Below, in pieces: positions 13,633 to 25,068 of a DNA stretch of 63,331 nt. The stretch is taken from contig CAJXKK010000015.1 in assembly GCA_913055615.1 (NCBI GenBank), positions 1 through 63,331 on the forward strand, read 5' to 3'. Position numbers and translations under genes: made by a program. The notes beneath the pieces are model-generated. The model searched no databases and was not told the DNA's origin. It worked only from the letters and a program-made list of their open reading frames with translations. How positions within the stretch are numbered: position 1 is the first letter of the stretch; each line of letters starts with the position of its first letter. Source of the DNA: an uncultured Ectothiorhodospiraceae bacterium. GTDB taxonomy: Bacteria > Pseudomonadota > Gammaproteobacteria > XJ16 > Halofilaceae.

Positions 13633-14292
13633 ATGACCGGCATCGTCTATTGGCTCGACCTCGCGGGTGTAGCCGTATTCGCGCTATCCGGGGTAATCCT
13701 CGCCTGTCGGTCCCGCATGGACCCGTTCGGCATGCTGGCGCTCGCCGCGGTCACCGGCATCGGTGGCGGCACGTTGCGCGATCTCGTGCTCGGCGTGCAA
13801 CCCGTGTTCTGGGTAACGGACCCGACCTACCTGTGGGTGGTGTTGACCACGGTCGTACTCGCCAGTGTCGGCTTCCGTTATATCCACCGCCTCACGCGCA
13901 CGGTCCTGCCCGTGGTCGACGCGATCGGGCTCGCCCTGTTCACCGCGATCGGCACGCATAAAGCCCTCCTGCTCGATGCACCGGGCTCAGTGGCGGTAGT
14001 GATGGGGCTGTTCACCGGTGTAGCCGGCGGGGTGATCCGCGATGTCCTGGCGAACCGGGTGCCCATGGTGTTGCGGGAGGAGATCTATGCCACTGCATCG
14101 ATCGCCGGCGGCATCGCGTTCGTGGCCCTGCATGCCTTCGATACGCCGTTCACGGTTGCGATCAGTGCGACCGTGGCGATTACCCTCGCCCTGCGCCTTG
14201 CCGCAATCCGCTGGAATCTGCGCCTGCCGGTCTTCGCCTGGGTCGTGTGGACGGCTCACAGCGAAGCCTCCGGGAAAGACAGGCGGCGCTGA
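13633..14292 (+). CDS. Trimeric intracellular cation (TRIC) channel family protein
   Basis: A 219-residue protein with seven hydrophobic segments and the duplicated signature of the UPF0126/TRIC family: GIGGGTLRDLVLG (about residues 47-59) and GVAGGVIRDVLANRVP (about residues 130-145). Bacterial homologues form homotrimeric K+/Na+ channels. The start is the ATG at 13633, with GGAGGCGGAG just upstream; longer frames to 13555 are unlikely. Confidence 0.85.
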   Translation: MTGIVYWLDLAGVAVFALSGVILACRSRMDPFGMLALAAVTGIGGGTLRDLVLGVQPVFWVTDPTYLWVVLTTVVLASVGFRYIHRLTRTVLPVVDAIGLALFTAIGTHKALLLDAPGSVAVVMGLFTGVAGGVIRDVLANRVPMVLREEIYATASIAGGIAFVALHAFDTPFTVAISATVAITLALRLAAIRWNLRLPVFAWVVWTAHSEASGKDRRR

Positions 14293-14357
14293 GGCGCCCC
14301 CGCTATTTCATAACGGCGCAGGCAGTGGTCCCAGGAGCCTGTCCGGCGGCGCGCTGA

Positions 14358-15173
14358 TCAGGCGTGATGCCAGGCCTCCAGCCCACCGATCAGGTAATAG
14401 GCGCGGCTGTATCCGTGCCAGCGCAGGTACGTGGCCGCAATGAGACTGCGCATACCAAGATCGCATACGTTGACGATGCATGTGTCCGCGGGCCAGCCGA
14501 GCGTGTGTCCGGAGAAGTCCTCCAGCGCCAGCCAGTGCGCCCATGGTGGCGCCACACGGGCGCGGTCCGTACTGGATCGCACATCAATCACCGCAGGCAC
14601 GGCCCCGTCATCCACCAACCGCCACAAATCGTCCACGGTCATCCCGAGTCGCGTCGGTGGCGGCCAACCAGGCGCCGGTCGATCGCCTTTGCGCCGGTGC
14701 GGCCCGGGCGGTGTTGCCGGGCCATAGGCTTCTACAGGCGCCCGTGAGGCATCCGCGCTCGATTCGCCCACCGAGCGGGGGAGGACATCCGCGAGGGTGA
14801 GTCGGGCCAGTGCTTCGTCGGTGCGGTTGTGCAGCGCAACCGAGAGCGAGCGGACGCTATTATCGGCCGCGGTATTGGTACCCGATGCCTCGCCGGAGCC
14901 ATGCGCGCCGCGGCAGGCGGCCGCGGCGGAGACCTCATGAAGCCGGATAGCGTCGGGAGCGCGCGCCAGACAGTAGGCAGGCGGATGTTCAGCGGCCTCA
15001 CCCACCGGACACAGGAGCCCACCGGCCGCCAGGCTGGCCAGCACCGAATACGCCTCATGGGGGGCTTTTCCAAGGGCCTCGCTCAGGGAGACGGTATCCA
15101 ACACGCCGTCCCGCGCGAGCGCCGCGCGGACCATGGTCTCGACGTGATCGTGGAGCTGCGGATCGACATTCAC
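14358..15173 (-). CDS. Winged-helix plus rhodanese-domain protein
   Basis: A 271-residue protein. The first 75 residues look like a winged helix (GVLDTVSLSEALGKAPHEAY, then SVLASLAAGGLLCPVGE). The middle is a polar Pro/Arg-rich linker (about 90-175). The C-terminal 95 residues form a rhodanese domain with VPAVIDVRSSTDRA and the active-site loop NVCDLGMRSLIAA, whose Cys is intact. DNA-binding plus persulfide chemistry suggests a sulfur-responsive regulator. It is divergent from a Cys-rich MarR gene with only 93 bases between starts. Confidence 0.65.
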   Translation of the reverse strand: MNVDPQLHDHVETMVRAALARDGVLDTVSLSEALGKAPHEAYSVLASLAAGGLLCPVGEAAEHPPAYCLARAPDAIRLHEVSAAAACRGAHGSGEASGTNTAADNSVRSLSVALHNRTDEALARLTLADVLPRSVGESSADASRAPVEAYGPATPPGPHRRKGDRPAPGWPPPTRLGMTVDDLWRLVDDGAVPAVIDVRSSTDRARVAPPWAHWLALEDFSGHTLGWPADTCIVNVCDLGMRSLIAATYLRWHGYSRAYYLIGGLEAWHHA

Positions 15174-15199
15174 GGCTCCCCTCCAGAACCCGAATATGA

Positions 15200-15212
15200 T
15201 TTCGATTCGAAA
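15200..15212. promoter_or_regulatory. Palindromic operator candidate between divergent regulators
   Basis: TTTCGATTCGAAA is a 13-base palindrome (6-bp arms around a central T) in the short divergent region between the winged-helix/rhodanese gene and the marR-like gene. It sits in the most AT-rich part of that region and 55 bases upstream of the marR ATG, as expected for a MarR-type operator. Confidence 0.45.
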
Positions 15213-15266
15213 CTATATGAGCGGCACCGAATGGTCAACAGGACCTCGAGGCGCTACCATCCGGGG

Positions 15267-15851
15267 ATGCAGGAAAATGATCGCGACGCCCCACTCCAGT
15301 TGGCCTGCCTCGTCAGTCACATGGGCAGGCGCGCCGGCAGCCGCGGCGGCGATGCCGGCCTGACACCGACACAGTGGAATGCATTACGCTTCTTTGGTAA
15401 CGCCAACCGCTTCTCGCGCACGCCGTCGGCCTTCGCGAGCTTTCAGGGGACTACCCGCGGTACGGCATCGGCAACGATCAGCGCGCTCGTGCACGCCGGT
15501 TATCTCGTACGGCGAAGTTCAGGATCGGATGGACGCAGCGTCAGCCTCGAGCCCAGCGAGAGCGGCTATCGCCTGCTCGAGCAGGATCCCGAGCACGCCG
15601 TGGAACTCGCGATCAGCGAGATGACGCCGGAGCAGCGGCGCTGCCTCGCGGCTGCCGTGACCCGCATCATCACCCGCGTAGCGGAAACCGACGGCGGTCC
15701 CACCTTCGGGACCTGCCATGAGTGCCGCCATCTGAGCCGATCGGGCCTGGGTGGGGACTACCCTTATTATTGCGAACGCGAGGCGGCACCACTGGCGGCA
15801 TACGAACTGGGTGGCCTTTGTGTGCACTTCGAACCGGATACACGCGAGTGA
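15267..15851 (+). CDS. MarR family regulator with C-terminal four-cysteine motif
   Basis: A 194-residue protein. Residues about 10-140 form a MarR winged helix (LTPTQWNALRFFGNANRF, TRGTASATISALVHAGYLVRR, SDGRSVSLEPSESGYRLLEQ). The C-terminal 45 residues carry CHEC, then a Cys 16 residues later (YYC) and another 16 residues later (LCVHFEP), giving C-x2-C-x15-C-x15-C. Ordinary MarR proteins lack this tail, which could bind zinc or an Fe-S cluster. The stop overlaps the GTG start of a GGDEF protein. The ATG at 15267 is used; 15231 is possible. Confidence 0.7.
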   Translation: MQENDRDAPLQLACLVSHMGRRAGSRGGDAGLTPTQWNALRFFGNANRFSRTPSAFASFQGTTRGTASATISALVHAGYLVRRSSGSDGRSVSLEPSESGYRLLEQDPEHAVELAISEMTPEQRRCLAAAVTRIITRVAETDGGPTFGTCHECRHLSRSGLGGDYPYYCEREAAPLAAYELGGLCVHFEPDTRE

Positions 15852-17566
15852 CCGAAGCATCCCTGCACTGGCTACCCCGCGATCTCCTTGACCGGATACC
15901 CGCTGCCGTACTCGTTACCGATGCCCGCGTTGAGCCGCCGGGCCCACGCATCCTCTACGCCAACCCGGCCTGGGAAAAGATGAGCGGGTGCACCCTCGCC
16001 GAGGTCGTCGGTCAGACCCCATCGATGGTGCTGGAGAGGCCTCAGGCGGATGCGCGAACCGTGTCTCTGGACCGCCTGCGCGGCTGCCTCGAAAAGGAGC
16101 ACGGCCCCGACGGCGCGGATAACGGTCACTGTGGGAGCGGCACTTCGGCCTGGAGCATCGAGTTACTCCATGAGCCGAAGGGATCGGTCGTCGGATTCGG
16201 GTTCGTGGAGCGCGGCATCGAGCCAACCGGCCACACCGACGTCGCCAATGCGCTCGACGTAATCCGCGAACTGCAGCACCTGCTGGACCACACGCAACTG
16301 GATCTCAAAACGGCTCGACAGCAAGTGGCTTATGCCGCTATGCGGCTCGCCGGAGCCGAGGCCGCGGTCGTCGAAGAACCGGACGGGGAGGAGATGGTTT
16401 ATCGGGCGGTCGCCGGCTGCGCGGATGGGCTGGAGAACCTGCGGCTGCCGATGTACGGCAGCGCCTCCGGTTACTGTCATTCGTCGTGCGAATCCCTGCT
16501 GATCGCCGACACCCTCACCGACGAACGCGTGCCGCTGGGGGGCAAAGCGGCGGATGTCGGTTTTCGCTCTGGCATTCTGACGCCACTCGTGCACGGCGAT
16601 CGCCGCTTTGGTGTGCTCAAGGTATTTTCCGGTGTACCCGATTCGTTCGGGCGAACCGAGGGCGAATTCCTGGACATCCTGGCGGGCCTGCTTGCGGCGG
16701 TCCTATACCGGGCACGGAGCTACGAGTCCGAAGCCGAGCGACGACGTCACCTGGTGGATGCGCTGCCGATGCTCGTGGCCTATGTCGACAGCAATCGGTG
16801 CTATCGCGAAGTCAACGCCGCCTACGCGGACTGGTTCGGCCACCCCATCGGCGAAATCATCGGGCGACCCGTGCGGGAAATCGTCGGCGAATCGGCATAC
16901 GAACGGATCCGGCCGCATATCGATCATGTCCTGAATACCGGCGAGAGCGTGAGCTACGAGGAAACGATCACGTTGCCAGGCGACAGCCCAAGGGTGCTAT
17001 CCGTTGATTACGCCCCGAACCTGCATGCTGATGGCGCCGTCGCCGGTTTTTACGCGCTCGTGCGCGATGTGACCAAGGCGAGCGCCGCCGACACGGACCA
17101 CCTTACGCAGCTGCCCAACCGTAAACGATTCGAGGAAGAGGCTCAGCGCCAGCTCGAGGTAAGCCGCCGGCACGGTCGCACACTGAGCCTCATCTTCGCC
17201 GACGTCGATCACTTCAAGTGGTGGAACGATACCCTGGGTCATCAGACCGGCGACCGGATCCTGGAATCAATCGCCACACAATTGCGGGACGAGGCGCGCA
17301 ACATTGACCTGGTGGCGCGATGGGGCGGTGAGGAATTCGTCATCCTGGCCCCTGAGACGGACCTCAACGGCGCGCAAGCCCTCGCTGAGCGCATCCGCCA
17401 ACGGATCGCGGCAACCTACCAGCCGGAAGGCGAATTGGTCACGCTCAGTTTTGGCGTGGCGGAAGCACAAAGTGAAAGCCTGTCGCTGAGCAATCTGATG
17501 CGCGCCGCCGATACAGCTCTTTACGCGGCCAAGACGAGTGGACGGAACTGCGTGAAGACCGCATAG
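15848..17566 (+). CDS. PAS-GAF-PAS diguanylate cyclase
   Basis: A 572-residue protein. The order is PAS (about 15-120, ending in FGFVERG), a coiled linker, GAF (about 150-290, ILTPLVHGDRRFGVLKVF), PAS (about 300-410, YREVNAAYADWFGHPIGEI) and GGDEF (about 415-570). The catalytic GGEEF is intact at residue 493 and HLTQLPNRKRF opens the domain, so cyclic-di-GMP synthesis is expected. The GTG start overlaps the marR stop by the GTGA arrangement, so both are made from one transcript, linking redox sensing to c-di-GMP. Confidence 0.85.
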   Translation: MTEASLHWLPRDLLDRIPAAVLVTDARVEPPGPRILYANPAWEKMSGCTLAEVVGQTPSMVLERPQADARTVSLDRLRGCLEKEHGPDGADNGHCGSGTSAWSIELLHEPKGSVVGFGFVERGIEPTGHTDVANALDVIRELQHLLDHTQLDLKTARQQVAYAAMRLAGAEAAVVEEPDGEEMVYRAVAGCADGLENLRLPMYGSASGYCHSSCESLLIADTLTDERVPLGGKAADVGFRSGILTPLVHGDRRFGVLKVFSGVPDSFGRTEGEFLDILAGLLAAVLYRARSYESEAERRRHLVDALPMLVAYVDSNRCYREVNAAYADWFGHPIGEIIGRPVREIVGESAYERIRPHIDHVLNTGESVSYEETITLPGDSPRVLSVDYAPNLHADGAVAGFYALVRDVTKASAADTDHLTQLPNRKRFEEEAQRQLEVSRRHGRTLSLIFADVDHFKWWNDTLGHQTGDRILESIATQLRDEARNIDLVARWGGEEFVILAPETDLNGAQALAERIRQRIAATYQPEGELVTLSFGVAEAQSESLSLSNLMRAADTALYAAKTSGRNCVKTA

Positions 17567-17691
17567 CCTGGCGCTGGTTAGACGCCCGGGCTGTCCTGCC
17601 CCCTGACCCTCTTCAACATACCGATACCGCTCAGGGCAGCGCCGAGCCCGGCGACCGGCCCTCGCTCGTTGCGCGCCAGGGACGATTCCCG

Positions 17692-17751
17692 TTGACTCGG
17701 CTTGACCGACATCCGATACTCGCAATCTGTTATTAGATCGACCGATCTAAT
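17692..17751 (+). promoter_or_regulatory. Promoter and palindromic operator of the methanethiol oxidase operon
   Basis: TTGACT (17692-17697) and GATACT (17715-17720), spaced 17 bases apart, form a sigma-70-like promoter. Directly downstream ATTAGATCGACCGATCTAAT (17732-17751) is a 20-base palindrome with perfect 9-bp arms, placed about where transcription would begin, the classic position of a repressor operator. A TetR-type repressor is the best guess; one is encoded at the end of the cluster. Confidence 0.5.
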
Positions 17752-17845: not shown

Positions 17846-18439
17846 ATGCTGTACACCGACCACAGCGCTGAATATTCCGACGCCTGGGTCGACGAAATTC
17901 CTGGATCGGTCAAGACGATCGCGATGGTGGGCGCCAGCGGGGACGAGACCAAGCCCGGTAACCATGTGCTGAGGTTCCTGACAGACGCCGGTTATGAGCT
18001 GATCCGGGTCAATCCACGGCCCGATCTCACCGAGATCCGGGGACTGAAGGTATACCCATCCCTCCAACCCATCGATCGGCCGATCGACATGGTCGACGTG
18101 TTCCGCCCGTCGGAAGAGCTCGCGGGGATCGCCAGCCATGCCGTGGAGACGGGTGCCAGGGTGCGCTGGGCCCAGCTCGGTGTCCATAACGACGAGGCGG
18201 CGCGGATTGCCGAGGCCGGCGGCCTCGAGGTGGTGATGGATCGCTGCCCGAAGATCGAACTGCTGCGCGCATCCCGGGAGGCGGACCCGGACCGCAGGAC
18301 GCGGCCAATCGAGGGGAGCGGGGCCAACCTTGTCCATGCCGCCATTGGATTCAGCCGGCCAGGCGGCCCCCTGAACACTGCATGCCAGCTGGTGGGCGCC
18401 CTGCCCGCCCGGGCAAGGGAGACGATACGATATGAATGA
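17846..18439 (+). CDS. CoA-binding domain protein (YccU/COG1832 type), copy 1
   Basis: A 197-residue protein. A Rossmann-like CoA-binding domain spans residues about 18-140, with SVKTIAMVGASGDETKPGN, RVNPRPDLTEIRGLKVYPSL, DMVDVFRPSEEL and the conserved VVMDRCPKIE containing a single invariant Cys. A C-terminal extension of about 50 residues is unique to this copy. It overlaps the methanethiol oxidase start by eight bases, so translation is coupled. The family binds CoA but its reaction is unknown. A close relative follows at 20155. Confidence 0.75.
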   Translation: MLYTDHSAEYSDAWVDEIPGSVKTIAMVGASGDETKPGNHVLRFLTDAGYELIRVNPRPDLTEIRGLKVYPSLQPIDRPIDMVDVFRPSEELAGIASHAVETGARVRWAQLGVHNDEAARIAEAGGLEVVMDRCPKIELLRASREADPDRRTRPIEGSGANLVHAAIGFSRPGGPLNTACQLVGALPARARETIRYE

Positions 18440-19793
18440 AGCCGCATGTTGTTGTGGTCCGGGCTACGCGTCACCCGCCGAGGCGATGCAGGCGCCACGG
18501 GAGAACGTGCTCTACACCATCGCGATCTACACCGGTACCGGCATCCAGAAGCCGGACTACCTCTGCACGATCGACGCCGACCCGCAGAGCCCCACCTACA
18601 GCCAGGTGATCAGCCGCCTGGAGATGCCCGGGATCGGCGACGAGCTGCACCACATGGGCTGGAATGCCTGCTCCTCCTGCCATGGCGACGCCAGCAAGGA
18701 GCGGCGCTACCTGATCGTGCCGGGGGTGCGCTCGTCGAATCTGCACATCGTCGATTGCGGCGATGACCCCCGCAATCCGAAGCTGTACAAGGTCGTCGAC
18801 GGCGACGAGATCAAGCGCAAGACCAACCTGTCGGCGCCCCATACGGTGCATTGCCTGGGCTCGGACATCATCATCTCGATGCTCGGCGACGCGCTCGGCA
18901 ACGCGCCGGGCGGTTACCTGCACCTGAACGAGGACTTCGAGATCCTGGGGCGCTGGGAAGAGGGCATGGGCGACATCAAGTTCGGCTATGACTTCTGGTA
19001 CCAGCCCCGGCACAACGTCATGGTCAGCAGCGAATGGGCGGCGCCCAACACATTCATGCCCGGCTTCGACCTGGAGGAAGTGGGCCACCTCAAGTACGGG
19101 CGAGAACTGCACTTCTGGGACTTCGAGAAGAAGGAGCCCAAACAGACCTTCTATCTCGGCGAGGACGGACTGATCCCGCTCGAGGTCCGCTTCCACCACA
19201 ACCCGGACAGCACGCACGGCTTCTGCTGCGCCGCGCTGAGCTCCAACATCATCCACTGGTGGAAGGACGACGACGGCGAGTGGCAGTGGGAAAAGATCAT
19301 CGACGTGGCCAACGAGCCGCATCCTGACTGGCCGATCCCGGTGCCCGGTGTCATTTCCGACATCCTCCTGTCTATGGATGACCGCTTCCTGTACCTCAAC
19401 AACTGGCTGCACGGCGACATCCGCCAGTACGACATCTCCGATCCGCACAACCCCAGGTTGACCGGGCAGGTCTGGATGGGCGGGCTGCTCGGCAAGGCGC
19501 CCGAGGTCAACGGGGTCAAGGTCACGGGCGGGCCGCAGATGACGCAGCTGTCGCTGGACGGCACACGGATGTACGTCACTACCTCGCTGTTCTCCACCTG
19601 GGACAACCAGTTCTATCCCGAGATCCGTACCAACGGCGGCTGCATGCTGAAGGTGAACTGCGATCCCGTAAACGGAGGGATGGAGATCGACCCGGACTTC
19701 GTGGTCGATTTCGGCAACGAGCCCAATGGCCCCTCGCGCTGCCACGAGACCCGCTATCCCGGCGGCGATTGCACGAGCGATATCTGGATATGA
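18432..19793 (+). CDS. mtoX: Methanethiol oxidase (SELENBP1 family)
   Basis: A 453-residue protein of full family length. The N-terminus CCCGPGYASPAEAMQAPRE, the metal-site segments DELHHMGWNACSSCHGD and PHTVHCLGSD, GYDFWYQPRHNVMVSSEWA, IRFHHNPDSTHGF, the segment FLYLNNWLHGDIRQYDIS and the terminus YPGGDCTSDIWI all follow the selenium-binding protein/methanethiol oxidase family. Such enzymes convert methanethiol with O2 to formaldehyde, H2S and H2O2 in a copper-dependent reaction. No Sec or Tat signal is present, unlike periplasmic MtoX, so a cytoplasmic enzyme is predicted. It overlaps the genes on both sides. Confidence 0.88.
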   Translation: MNEAACCCGPGYASPAEAMQAPRENVLYTIAIYTGTGIQKPDYLCTIDADPQSPTYSQVISRLEMPGIGDELHHMGWNACSSCHGDASKERRYLIVPGVRSSNLHIVDCGDDPRNPKLYKVVDGDEIKRKTNLSAPHTVHCLGSDIIISMLGDALGNAPGGYLHLNEDFEILGRWEEGMGDIKFGYDFWYQPRHNVMVSSEWAAPNTFMPGFDLEEVGHLKYGRELHFWDFEKKEPKQTFYLGEDGLIPLEVRFHHNPDSTHGFCCAALSSNIIHWWKDDDGEWQWEKIIDVANEPHPDWPIPVPGVISDILLSMDDRFLYLNNWLHGDIRQYDISDPHNPRLTGQVWMGGLLGKAPEVNGVKVTGGPQMTQLSLDGTRMYVTTSLFSTWDNQFYPEIRTNGGCMLKVNCDPVNGGMEIDPDFVVDFGNEPNGPSRCHETRYPGGDCTSDIWI

Positions 19794-24486: not shown

Positions 24487-25068
24487 ATGCGCCCGTCGAA
24501 ACGTGAGGCGGTGCTCGATACCGCCGAGCACCTGTTCTACAACGAGGGCTTCCACGCCACGGGGATCGACCGCCTGGCGTCCGAGGCCGGTGTCGTCCGC
24601 ATGACGCTGTACAACCATTTCGGCTCCAAGGACGCCCTGATCGAGGCCGTGTTGGAACGCCGCTACGCCCGGTTCCTGGACGACCTGCGCGATGCCGTGG
24701 CGCACTGCGGCCCTGAGGGTGGCATTGCGGCGCTGGCCGAGCGCCACTGCAGCTGGCTGCGTGAACGCTCGACGCACGGCTGCATCGTGATCAAGGCCAT
24801 CGGCGAGTTCGAGAGCCACAACCCGGCCATCGCCGCGCTGGGCCGCCAGCTGAAACGCCGGTTGCTGGCCCTGATCGGCGAGGCGGTCGAGCATGATACA
24901 GGGATGCACGACACCGACATGAGCGAGCAGATCCTGATGATCCTCGAGGGTGCCAACGCGCTCGTACCCGTCTTCGGTTCCGATCACGCTATTCGACACG
25001 TACACGCGCTGATCGCCCATATCCCCCCTGCGAAAACCTGGTGGACGCTTGAACACACCTGCGGGTAA
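24487..25068 (+). CDS. TetR family transcriptional regulator
   Basis: A 193-residue protein with an N-terminal TetR helix-turn-helix: KREAVLDTAEHLFYNEGF, HATGIDRLASEAGVVRMTLY, NHFGSKDALIEAVLERR. The C-terminal part is the variable ligand-binding domain with two cysteines in AHCG and GCIVIKAIGEFES. It is divergent from the thioesterase-like gene and its 3' end overlaps the following MFS gene by 20 bases, so it probably controls that exporter. Control of the methanethiol oxidase operon is suggested only by location and the CGACCG operator core. Confidence 0.85.
   Translation: MRPSKREAVLDTAEHLFYNEGFHATGIDRLASEAGVVRMTLYNHFGSKDALIEAVLERRYARFLDDLRDAVAHCGPEGGIAALAERHCSWLRERSTHGCIVIKAIGEFESHNPAIAALGRQLKRRLLALIGEAVEHDTGMHDTDMSEQILMILEGANALVPVFGSDHAIRHVHALIAHIPPAKTWWTLEHTCG

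Follow-up and report, generated by a model that had tools for sequence, protein, structure and literature searches.

Organisation of the locus

The locus lies in a 63,331-nucleotide stretch of DNA (the window) and consists of three genes, here called the trio: one for a rhodanese fusion protein, a divergent one for a MarR-family regulator, and a diguanylate cyclase gene that overlaps the end of marR. Sequence reading and Pfam bore out the gene layout described in the initial annotation, i.e. the divergent rhodanese/marR pair, the spacing of the Cys residues, the stop-start overlap and a palindrome between the starts. The features are:

14251–17687: lineage-specific segment that contains the whole trio; about 85 bp stand in its place in G002, a genome of the same genus
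14358–15173, minus strand: rhodanese fusion; putative N-terminal winged helix, linker of about 100 residues modelled with low confidence, C-terminal rhodanese domain with CDLGMR loop
15199–15213: operator ATTTCGATTCGAAAC in the divergent promoter region, with core palindrome TTTCGATTCGAAA at 15200–15212
15243–15257: weak candidate for a second, degenerate operator at a distance of 44 bp; matrix score -10.7, ranking about 49th in the window
15267–15851, plus strand: MarR-family regulator of the four-Cys-tail subfamily; start codon ATG 15267 preferred, ATG 15231 possible
15714–15821, plus strand: codons of the four-Cys tail, C162-x2-C165-x15-C181-x15-C197
15848–17566, plus strand: PAS-GAF-PAS-GGDEF diguanylate cyclase, overlapping marR by the four nucleotides GTGA

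The rhodanese domain of the fusion protein scores 36.3 bits against the Pfam Rhodanese model (cut-off, 22.2), and direct reading shows its active loop, C-D-L-G-M-R, to be intact, including the active-site Cys. This part of the proposed winged helix-rhodanese fusion stands; the winged helix fared less well. The N-terminus gives a sub-threshold TrmB match (E = 0.11), and a single-sequence model of low confidence (mean pLDDT 37) has the order helix-helix-helix-strand-strand at this end, which gives no more than a hint of a winged helix. GlpE and Thermus TT1651 (PDB 1wv9) share the rhodanese domain and the CxxGxR active loop with the window protein, but they are single-domain rhodaneses, whereas the window rhodanese is joined by a long linker to a putative N-terminal DNA-binding domain. 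No full-length homologue of the fusion was found in 143 relatives, 349 genomes of the phylum or a plasmid collection. The protein is a presumed sulfurtransferase that possibly also binds DNA.

The cyclase matches the Pfam GGDEF model with 157.6 bits. Its catalytic GGEEF motif and the inhibitory RxxD motif five residues upstream (RNID) are both intact by direct reading. The TGA stop codon of marR (15849–15851) overlaps the GTG start codon of the cyclase gene at 15848; this makes co-translation likely, and the two genes look like one translationally coupled unit.

A MarR subfamily with a four-cysteine tail

The window MarR matches the Pfam families MarR_2 (39.7 bits; cut-off, 27) and MarR (26.7 bits; cut-off, 24.6). 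AlphaFold2 predicts a MarR fold (pLDDT 87.8), and the best matches of this model in the PDB are all MarR proteins, e.g. MepR (4l9j_A; Z = 13.4, r.m.s. deviation of 3.1 over 135 residues); the match list is filled by the MarR core and hardly probes the tail. The protein reaches no curated NCBIfam model at cut-off, its only matches being Rv0880 (30.3 of the 220 needed) and FabT (22.9 of 200). In Pfam and PDB profile searches, the four-Cys tail matched neither a known metal-binding family nor a solved structure convincingly. A HiPIP-like tail had been prompted by the Cys spacing, and was dropped as neither kind of search backed it.

When the window MarR was used as query over 143 relatives, matches were found in 12 genomes, its own included. 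The four Cys are common to all ten aligned sequences (the window protein and nine matches among relatives). We ran a profile made from these ten sequences over 369 genomes of the class. All members with at least 88.8 bits that became loci carry the tail, whereas the four checked members below 63 bits lack it; five tails of the high-scoring loci were read by hand, and the copy in G311 is frameshifted just before the tail. When 84,980 species genomes were scanned with a pattern for the DNA-binding helix, which excludes the tail, 374 relatives came up. In the best 80 of these 374 relatives and the window protein, the four Cys of the tail never vary (81 of 81 sequences). The best 80 were ranked by full-length similarity to the query, which may have favoured sequences with the tail to some extent; the score gap in the class-wide profile speaks against such selection as the full cause of the invariance. 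The only invariant Cys columns in the 81-row alignment are those of the tail, and no core Cys is found among the invariant or nearly invariant columns. The initial annotation had named a Cys tail that is neither conserved among relatives nor able to bind metal or react with persulfide as the point that would speak against its sensor proposal; as far as conservation goes, the proposal withstood this check.

Judged from these alignments, MarR proteins with the four-Cys tail are a discrete subfamily, which is spread over Pseudomonadota, Nitrospirota, Nitrospinota, Acidobacteriota and Planctomycetota. In the tree, the window MarR groups with plasmid-borne genes (support 100/99), but its branch is long (1.07). 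Since, in addition, its closest relatives are just 43–44% identical, the window MarR may respond to another signal than the main subfamily does.

The subfamily is apparently undescribed so far. In a search confined to an open-access library, we found no description of a four-Cys-tail MarR class or of its operator, and nothing relevant on the Cys motif or on a link between MarR and cytochrome P460. OsbR of Chromobacterium was ruled out as a described member, as it has two Cys, at positions 55 and 133. Known Cys-based sensors of redox state or sulfane sulfur in the family include OhrR, MexR, MgrA and E. coli MarR (PMC11211675). They resemble the window MarR in having the MarR fold, a palindromic operator and Cys as the presumed sensor. 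However, they use core Cys that are not conserved here, whereas the invariant Cys of the four-Cys subfamily are in a C-terminal extension. Zinc sites in the MarR core are formed by E24, H42, H108 and H112 in AdcR, and by Cys28 and Thr43 in LdtR (PMC11211675). The likeness of the window MarR to these zinc-binding proteins is a possible metal site, but in the tail rather than the core, and the protein matches neither the AdcR nor the LdtR NCBIfam model at E = 0.001. In that review, core residues serve the sensors of sulfane sulfur, of oxidants and of zinc alike.

A conserved operator between the divergent genes

The core palindrome TTTCGATTCGAAA occurs once in the window. By shuffling, the palindrome alone is mildly unlikely (0.77 chance matches expected within two mismatches); what makes it significant is that the subfamily conserves it, not these odds. 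A dyad search upstream of the subfamily genes, with no motif named beforehand, repeatedly recovered the same palindrome. The subfamily consensus, GTWTCGANTCGAWAC, differs from ATTTCGATTCGAAAC at one position. In 75 of 81 loci, a copy with at most two mismatches precedes marR, compared to 0/81 for downstream stretches, 2/81 for coding stretches and 0 or 1 for each of five shuffles. Exact operators were searched for in 20 whole genomes, 16 with a subfamily gene and four without. They are present in nine of the 16 carriers, where every copy is at the marR locus by coordinates, and absent from all four genomes without the subfamily. The genome from which the window comes has four near-matches to the operator, of which the site at 15199 is the sole intergenic one, the other three being inside open reading frames. 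A weight matrix trained without the window gives the window site a score of 34.0, close to the median score in training (35.1); the next best score in the 63 kb is 10.8. By its conservation, the palindrome that the initial annotation had placed between the divergent starts is the operator of a dedicated local MarR regulator. The operator indicates the target of the subfamily wherever a copy turns up, so that the subfamily is directly testable.

Paired operator sites 45–57 bp apart are common in relatives. The candidate second operator at 15243 was rejected because its matrix score is too weak. Two of the four plasmid-borne relatives have no operator within three mismatches. The marR copy of G311 (L074) has two exact operators in its promoter despite the frameshift, which is due to either mutation or an assembly error.

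Origin of the segment

Nucleotide homology to G002 (blastn) stops at 14250 and restarts at 17688. G002 lacks the trio, but its two flanking membrane-protein genes and oxidase operon follow each other as in the window, at protein identities of 64–97%. The GC content at third codon positions is 0.73–0.75 in the trio genes, below the 0.78–0.89 of the flanking genes. Short repeats inside the segment look like chance, and no mobile element is marked. The segment was probably gained horizontally; on the basis of three genomes of the genus, gain in this genome is a simpler reading than loss in G002, which is possible. The initial annotation had suggested a search for conservation of the trio, and this turned out negative: full-length homologues of the rhodanese fusion are missing from the relatives, phylum genomes and plasmids searched, homologues of the cyclase occur without this MarR protein, and the MarR protein mostly faces other genes.

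Divergent partners and neighbours in relatives

The gene facing marR varies by lineage and may encode cytochrome P460, a CPVC thioredoxin-like protein, a redoxin, protoglobin or others. In alphaproteobacteria it is an RpoH-like sigma factor, and in betaproteobacteria a decarboxylase of the Orn/DAP/Arg type. One locus has an NnrS gene 3' of marR. The nearest relatives of the window MarR are plasmid-borne, in Polaromonas, Octadecabacter, Leisingera and Bradyrhizobium. On the Octadecabacter plasmid (L221:3974-7048), the four-Cys marR overlaps a gene for an Mrp/NUBPL Fe-S carrier, which is followed by a NifU/Nfu-DUF6522 gene; in Bradyrhizobium, a ferredoxin gene, FdxA, is located 3' of marR. These partner genes suggest an NO, redox or Fe-S stress signal, and the heme and thiol genes that recur among them (cytochrome P460, protoglobin, NnrS, redoxin) hint at one common signal. 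A search for cytochrome P460 in the genome of the window gave no match, yet control genomes were equally silent, so that this is no sign of absence. In about 25 loci (e.g. L160:4929-5672), the four-Cys marR faces a gene for an exported-looking protein without a Pfam match, often beside the gene for the CPVC thioredoxin-like protein.

A candidate redox or metal switch

Four invariant Cys are most naturally read as a metal, Fe-S or redox sensor. We consider it reasonably probable that the locus is a local, autoregulated divergent redox/metal switch. It would act on the rhodanese gene and on the marR-cyclase unit itself, from a segment probably acquired horizontally. A MarR dimer bound to ATTTCGATTCGAAAC between the start codons would repress the rhodanese gene and the marR-cyclase unit; some MarR proteins activate. 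A change at the four-Cys tail would free the MarR protein, either when an Fe-S cluster or Zn bound there is lost or damaged, or when the thiols are modified directly. The trigger at the tail may be a redox, NO or sulfur signal. Derepression would allow the rhodanese protein and the PAS-GAF-PAS cyclase to be made, with c-di-GMP as a presumed output. By analogy with the relatives, the rhodanese gene is presumed to be the main target, and the cyclase would be a co-translated second output.

The place of the cyclase in this scheme can be questioned. Full-length homologues of its PAS-GAF-PAS sensor region, 41–42% identical (L209, L218, L210), exist in genomes without this MarR protein, two in G002 and one in G091, and G333, whose MarR is 44% identical, has no cyclase downstream. 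The cyclase could be a passenger, a chance arrival from a family of paralogous cyclases, with the MarR protein mattering for the divergent gene only. The GTGA overlap speaks against this and we find it somewhat unlikely.

The tail might also be a structural Zn site that serves stability only, with an ordinary small-molecule ligand bound in the pocket of the MarR protein. Sub-threshold matches to zinc ribbons fit such a role (DZR_2 in 6 of 37 members, best E = 7.9e-4; zf-FPG_IleRS on the window tail, E = 0.11), and the short hairpin plus helix predicted for the tail of the window MarR model is compatible with a small Zn site. However, a structural site leaves the recurrent heme and thiol redox partners and the Fe-S assembly genes beside near relatives unexplained, and we regard it as unlikely.

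Within the redox/metal switch that we prefer, a more specific version is doubtful in our judgement: that the subfamily consists of Fe-S MarR repressors sensing NO or related redox stress via a tail cluster, each with one exchangeable divergent target, and that here a rewired output leads to a sulfurtransferase and c-di-GMP. NsrR and IscR, of the Rrf2 family, are Fe-S regulators of NO and redox stress. The likeness consists in a Cys-ligated sensor proposed for NO and redox genes, as four-Cys MarR relatives face P460 or protoglobin genes or adjoin NnrS; however, NsrR and IscR belong to a DNA-binding family unrelated to MarR, and an Fe-S cluster in four-Cys MarR proteins is hypothetical. If the tail holds such a cluster, the MarR family would gain a Cys-tail cluster sensor.

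The adjacent oxidase operon

Three features of the oxidase region lie downstream of the trio, all of them outside the switch:

17692–17720, plus strand: promoter of the oxidase operon found by a scan, TTGACT-17-GATACT, with the same hexamers in G002
17732–17751: perfect 20-bp palindrome ATTAGATCGACCGATCTAAT, just after the oxidase promoter
24487–25068, plus strand: TetR-like gene that closes the oxidase region, assigned to TetR by reading only; 84.5% identical in the syntenic G002

The initial annotation had taken the position of the trio directly upstream of the oxidase operon as a sign of control. This did not hold up, as the oxidase region is complete in G002, where the trio is missing, and a promoter, a palindrome and a TetR gene belong to the operon itself. 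The palindrome ATTAGATCGACCGATCTAAT is unique in the window (0 expected) and a probable TetR operator; a similar, less regular motif is found upstream of the TetR-like gene in both the window and G002. The TetR-like gene probably regulates the oxidase operon. No MarR operator is present in the oxidase promoter region, where the best matrix score is -14.9, versus 34.0 at the window site. MarR control of the operon was rejected on account of the lack of an operator there and of the situation in G002; as far as the sequences tell, the trio adjoins the oxidase operon without being its control unit. On the same grounds it is improbable that a persulfide or sulfide sensor joins the rhodanese protein, c-di-GMP and the methanethiol-oxidase operon in one sulfur response: the rhodanese gene does adjoin a Cys-rich regulator, the neighbouring operon has a second rhodanese, and several MarR proteins detect sulfane sulfur by Cys thiols (PMC11211675), but those sensors use one to three reactive Cys at other positions, and the trio is not conserved elsewhere. 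In our preferred reading of a local switch, the segment would have landed beside a methanethiol-oxidase-like operon with its own promoter and, probably, its own TetR regulator. Two adjacent control units in the window, merged by proximity alone, are now told apart.

The operon encodes an SBP56 protein (18432–19793) and also has two CoA-binding proteins, a ferredoxin and a rhodanese. The SBP56 protein scores 156.9 bits against the MtoX NCBIfam equivalog, under the cut-off of 650, and 693.7 bits against the SBP56 family. It is 88% identical in G053, a genome of another family, which suggests transfer.
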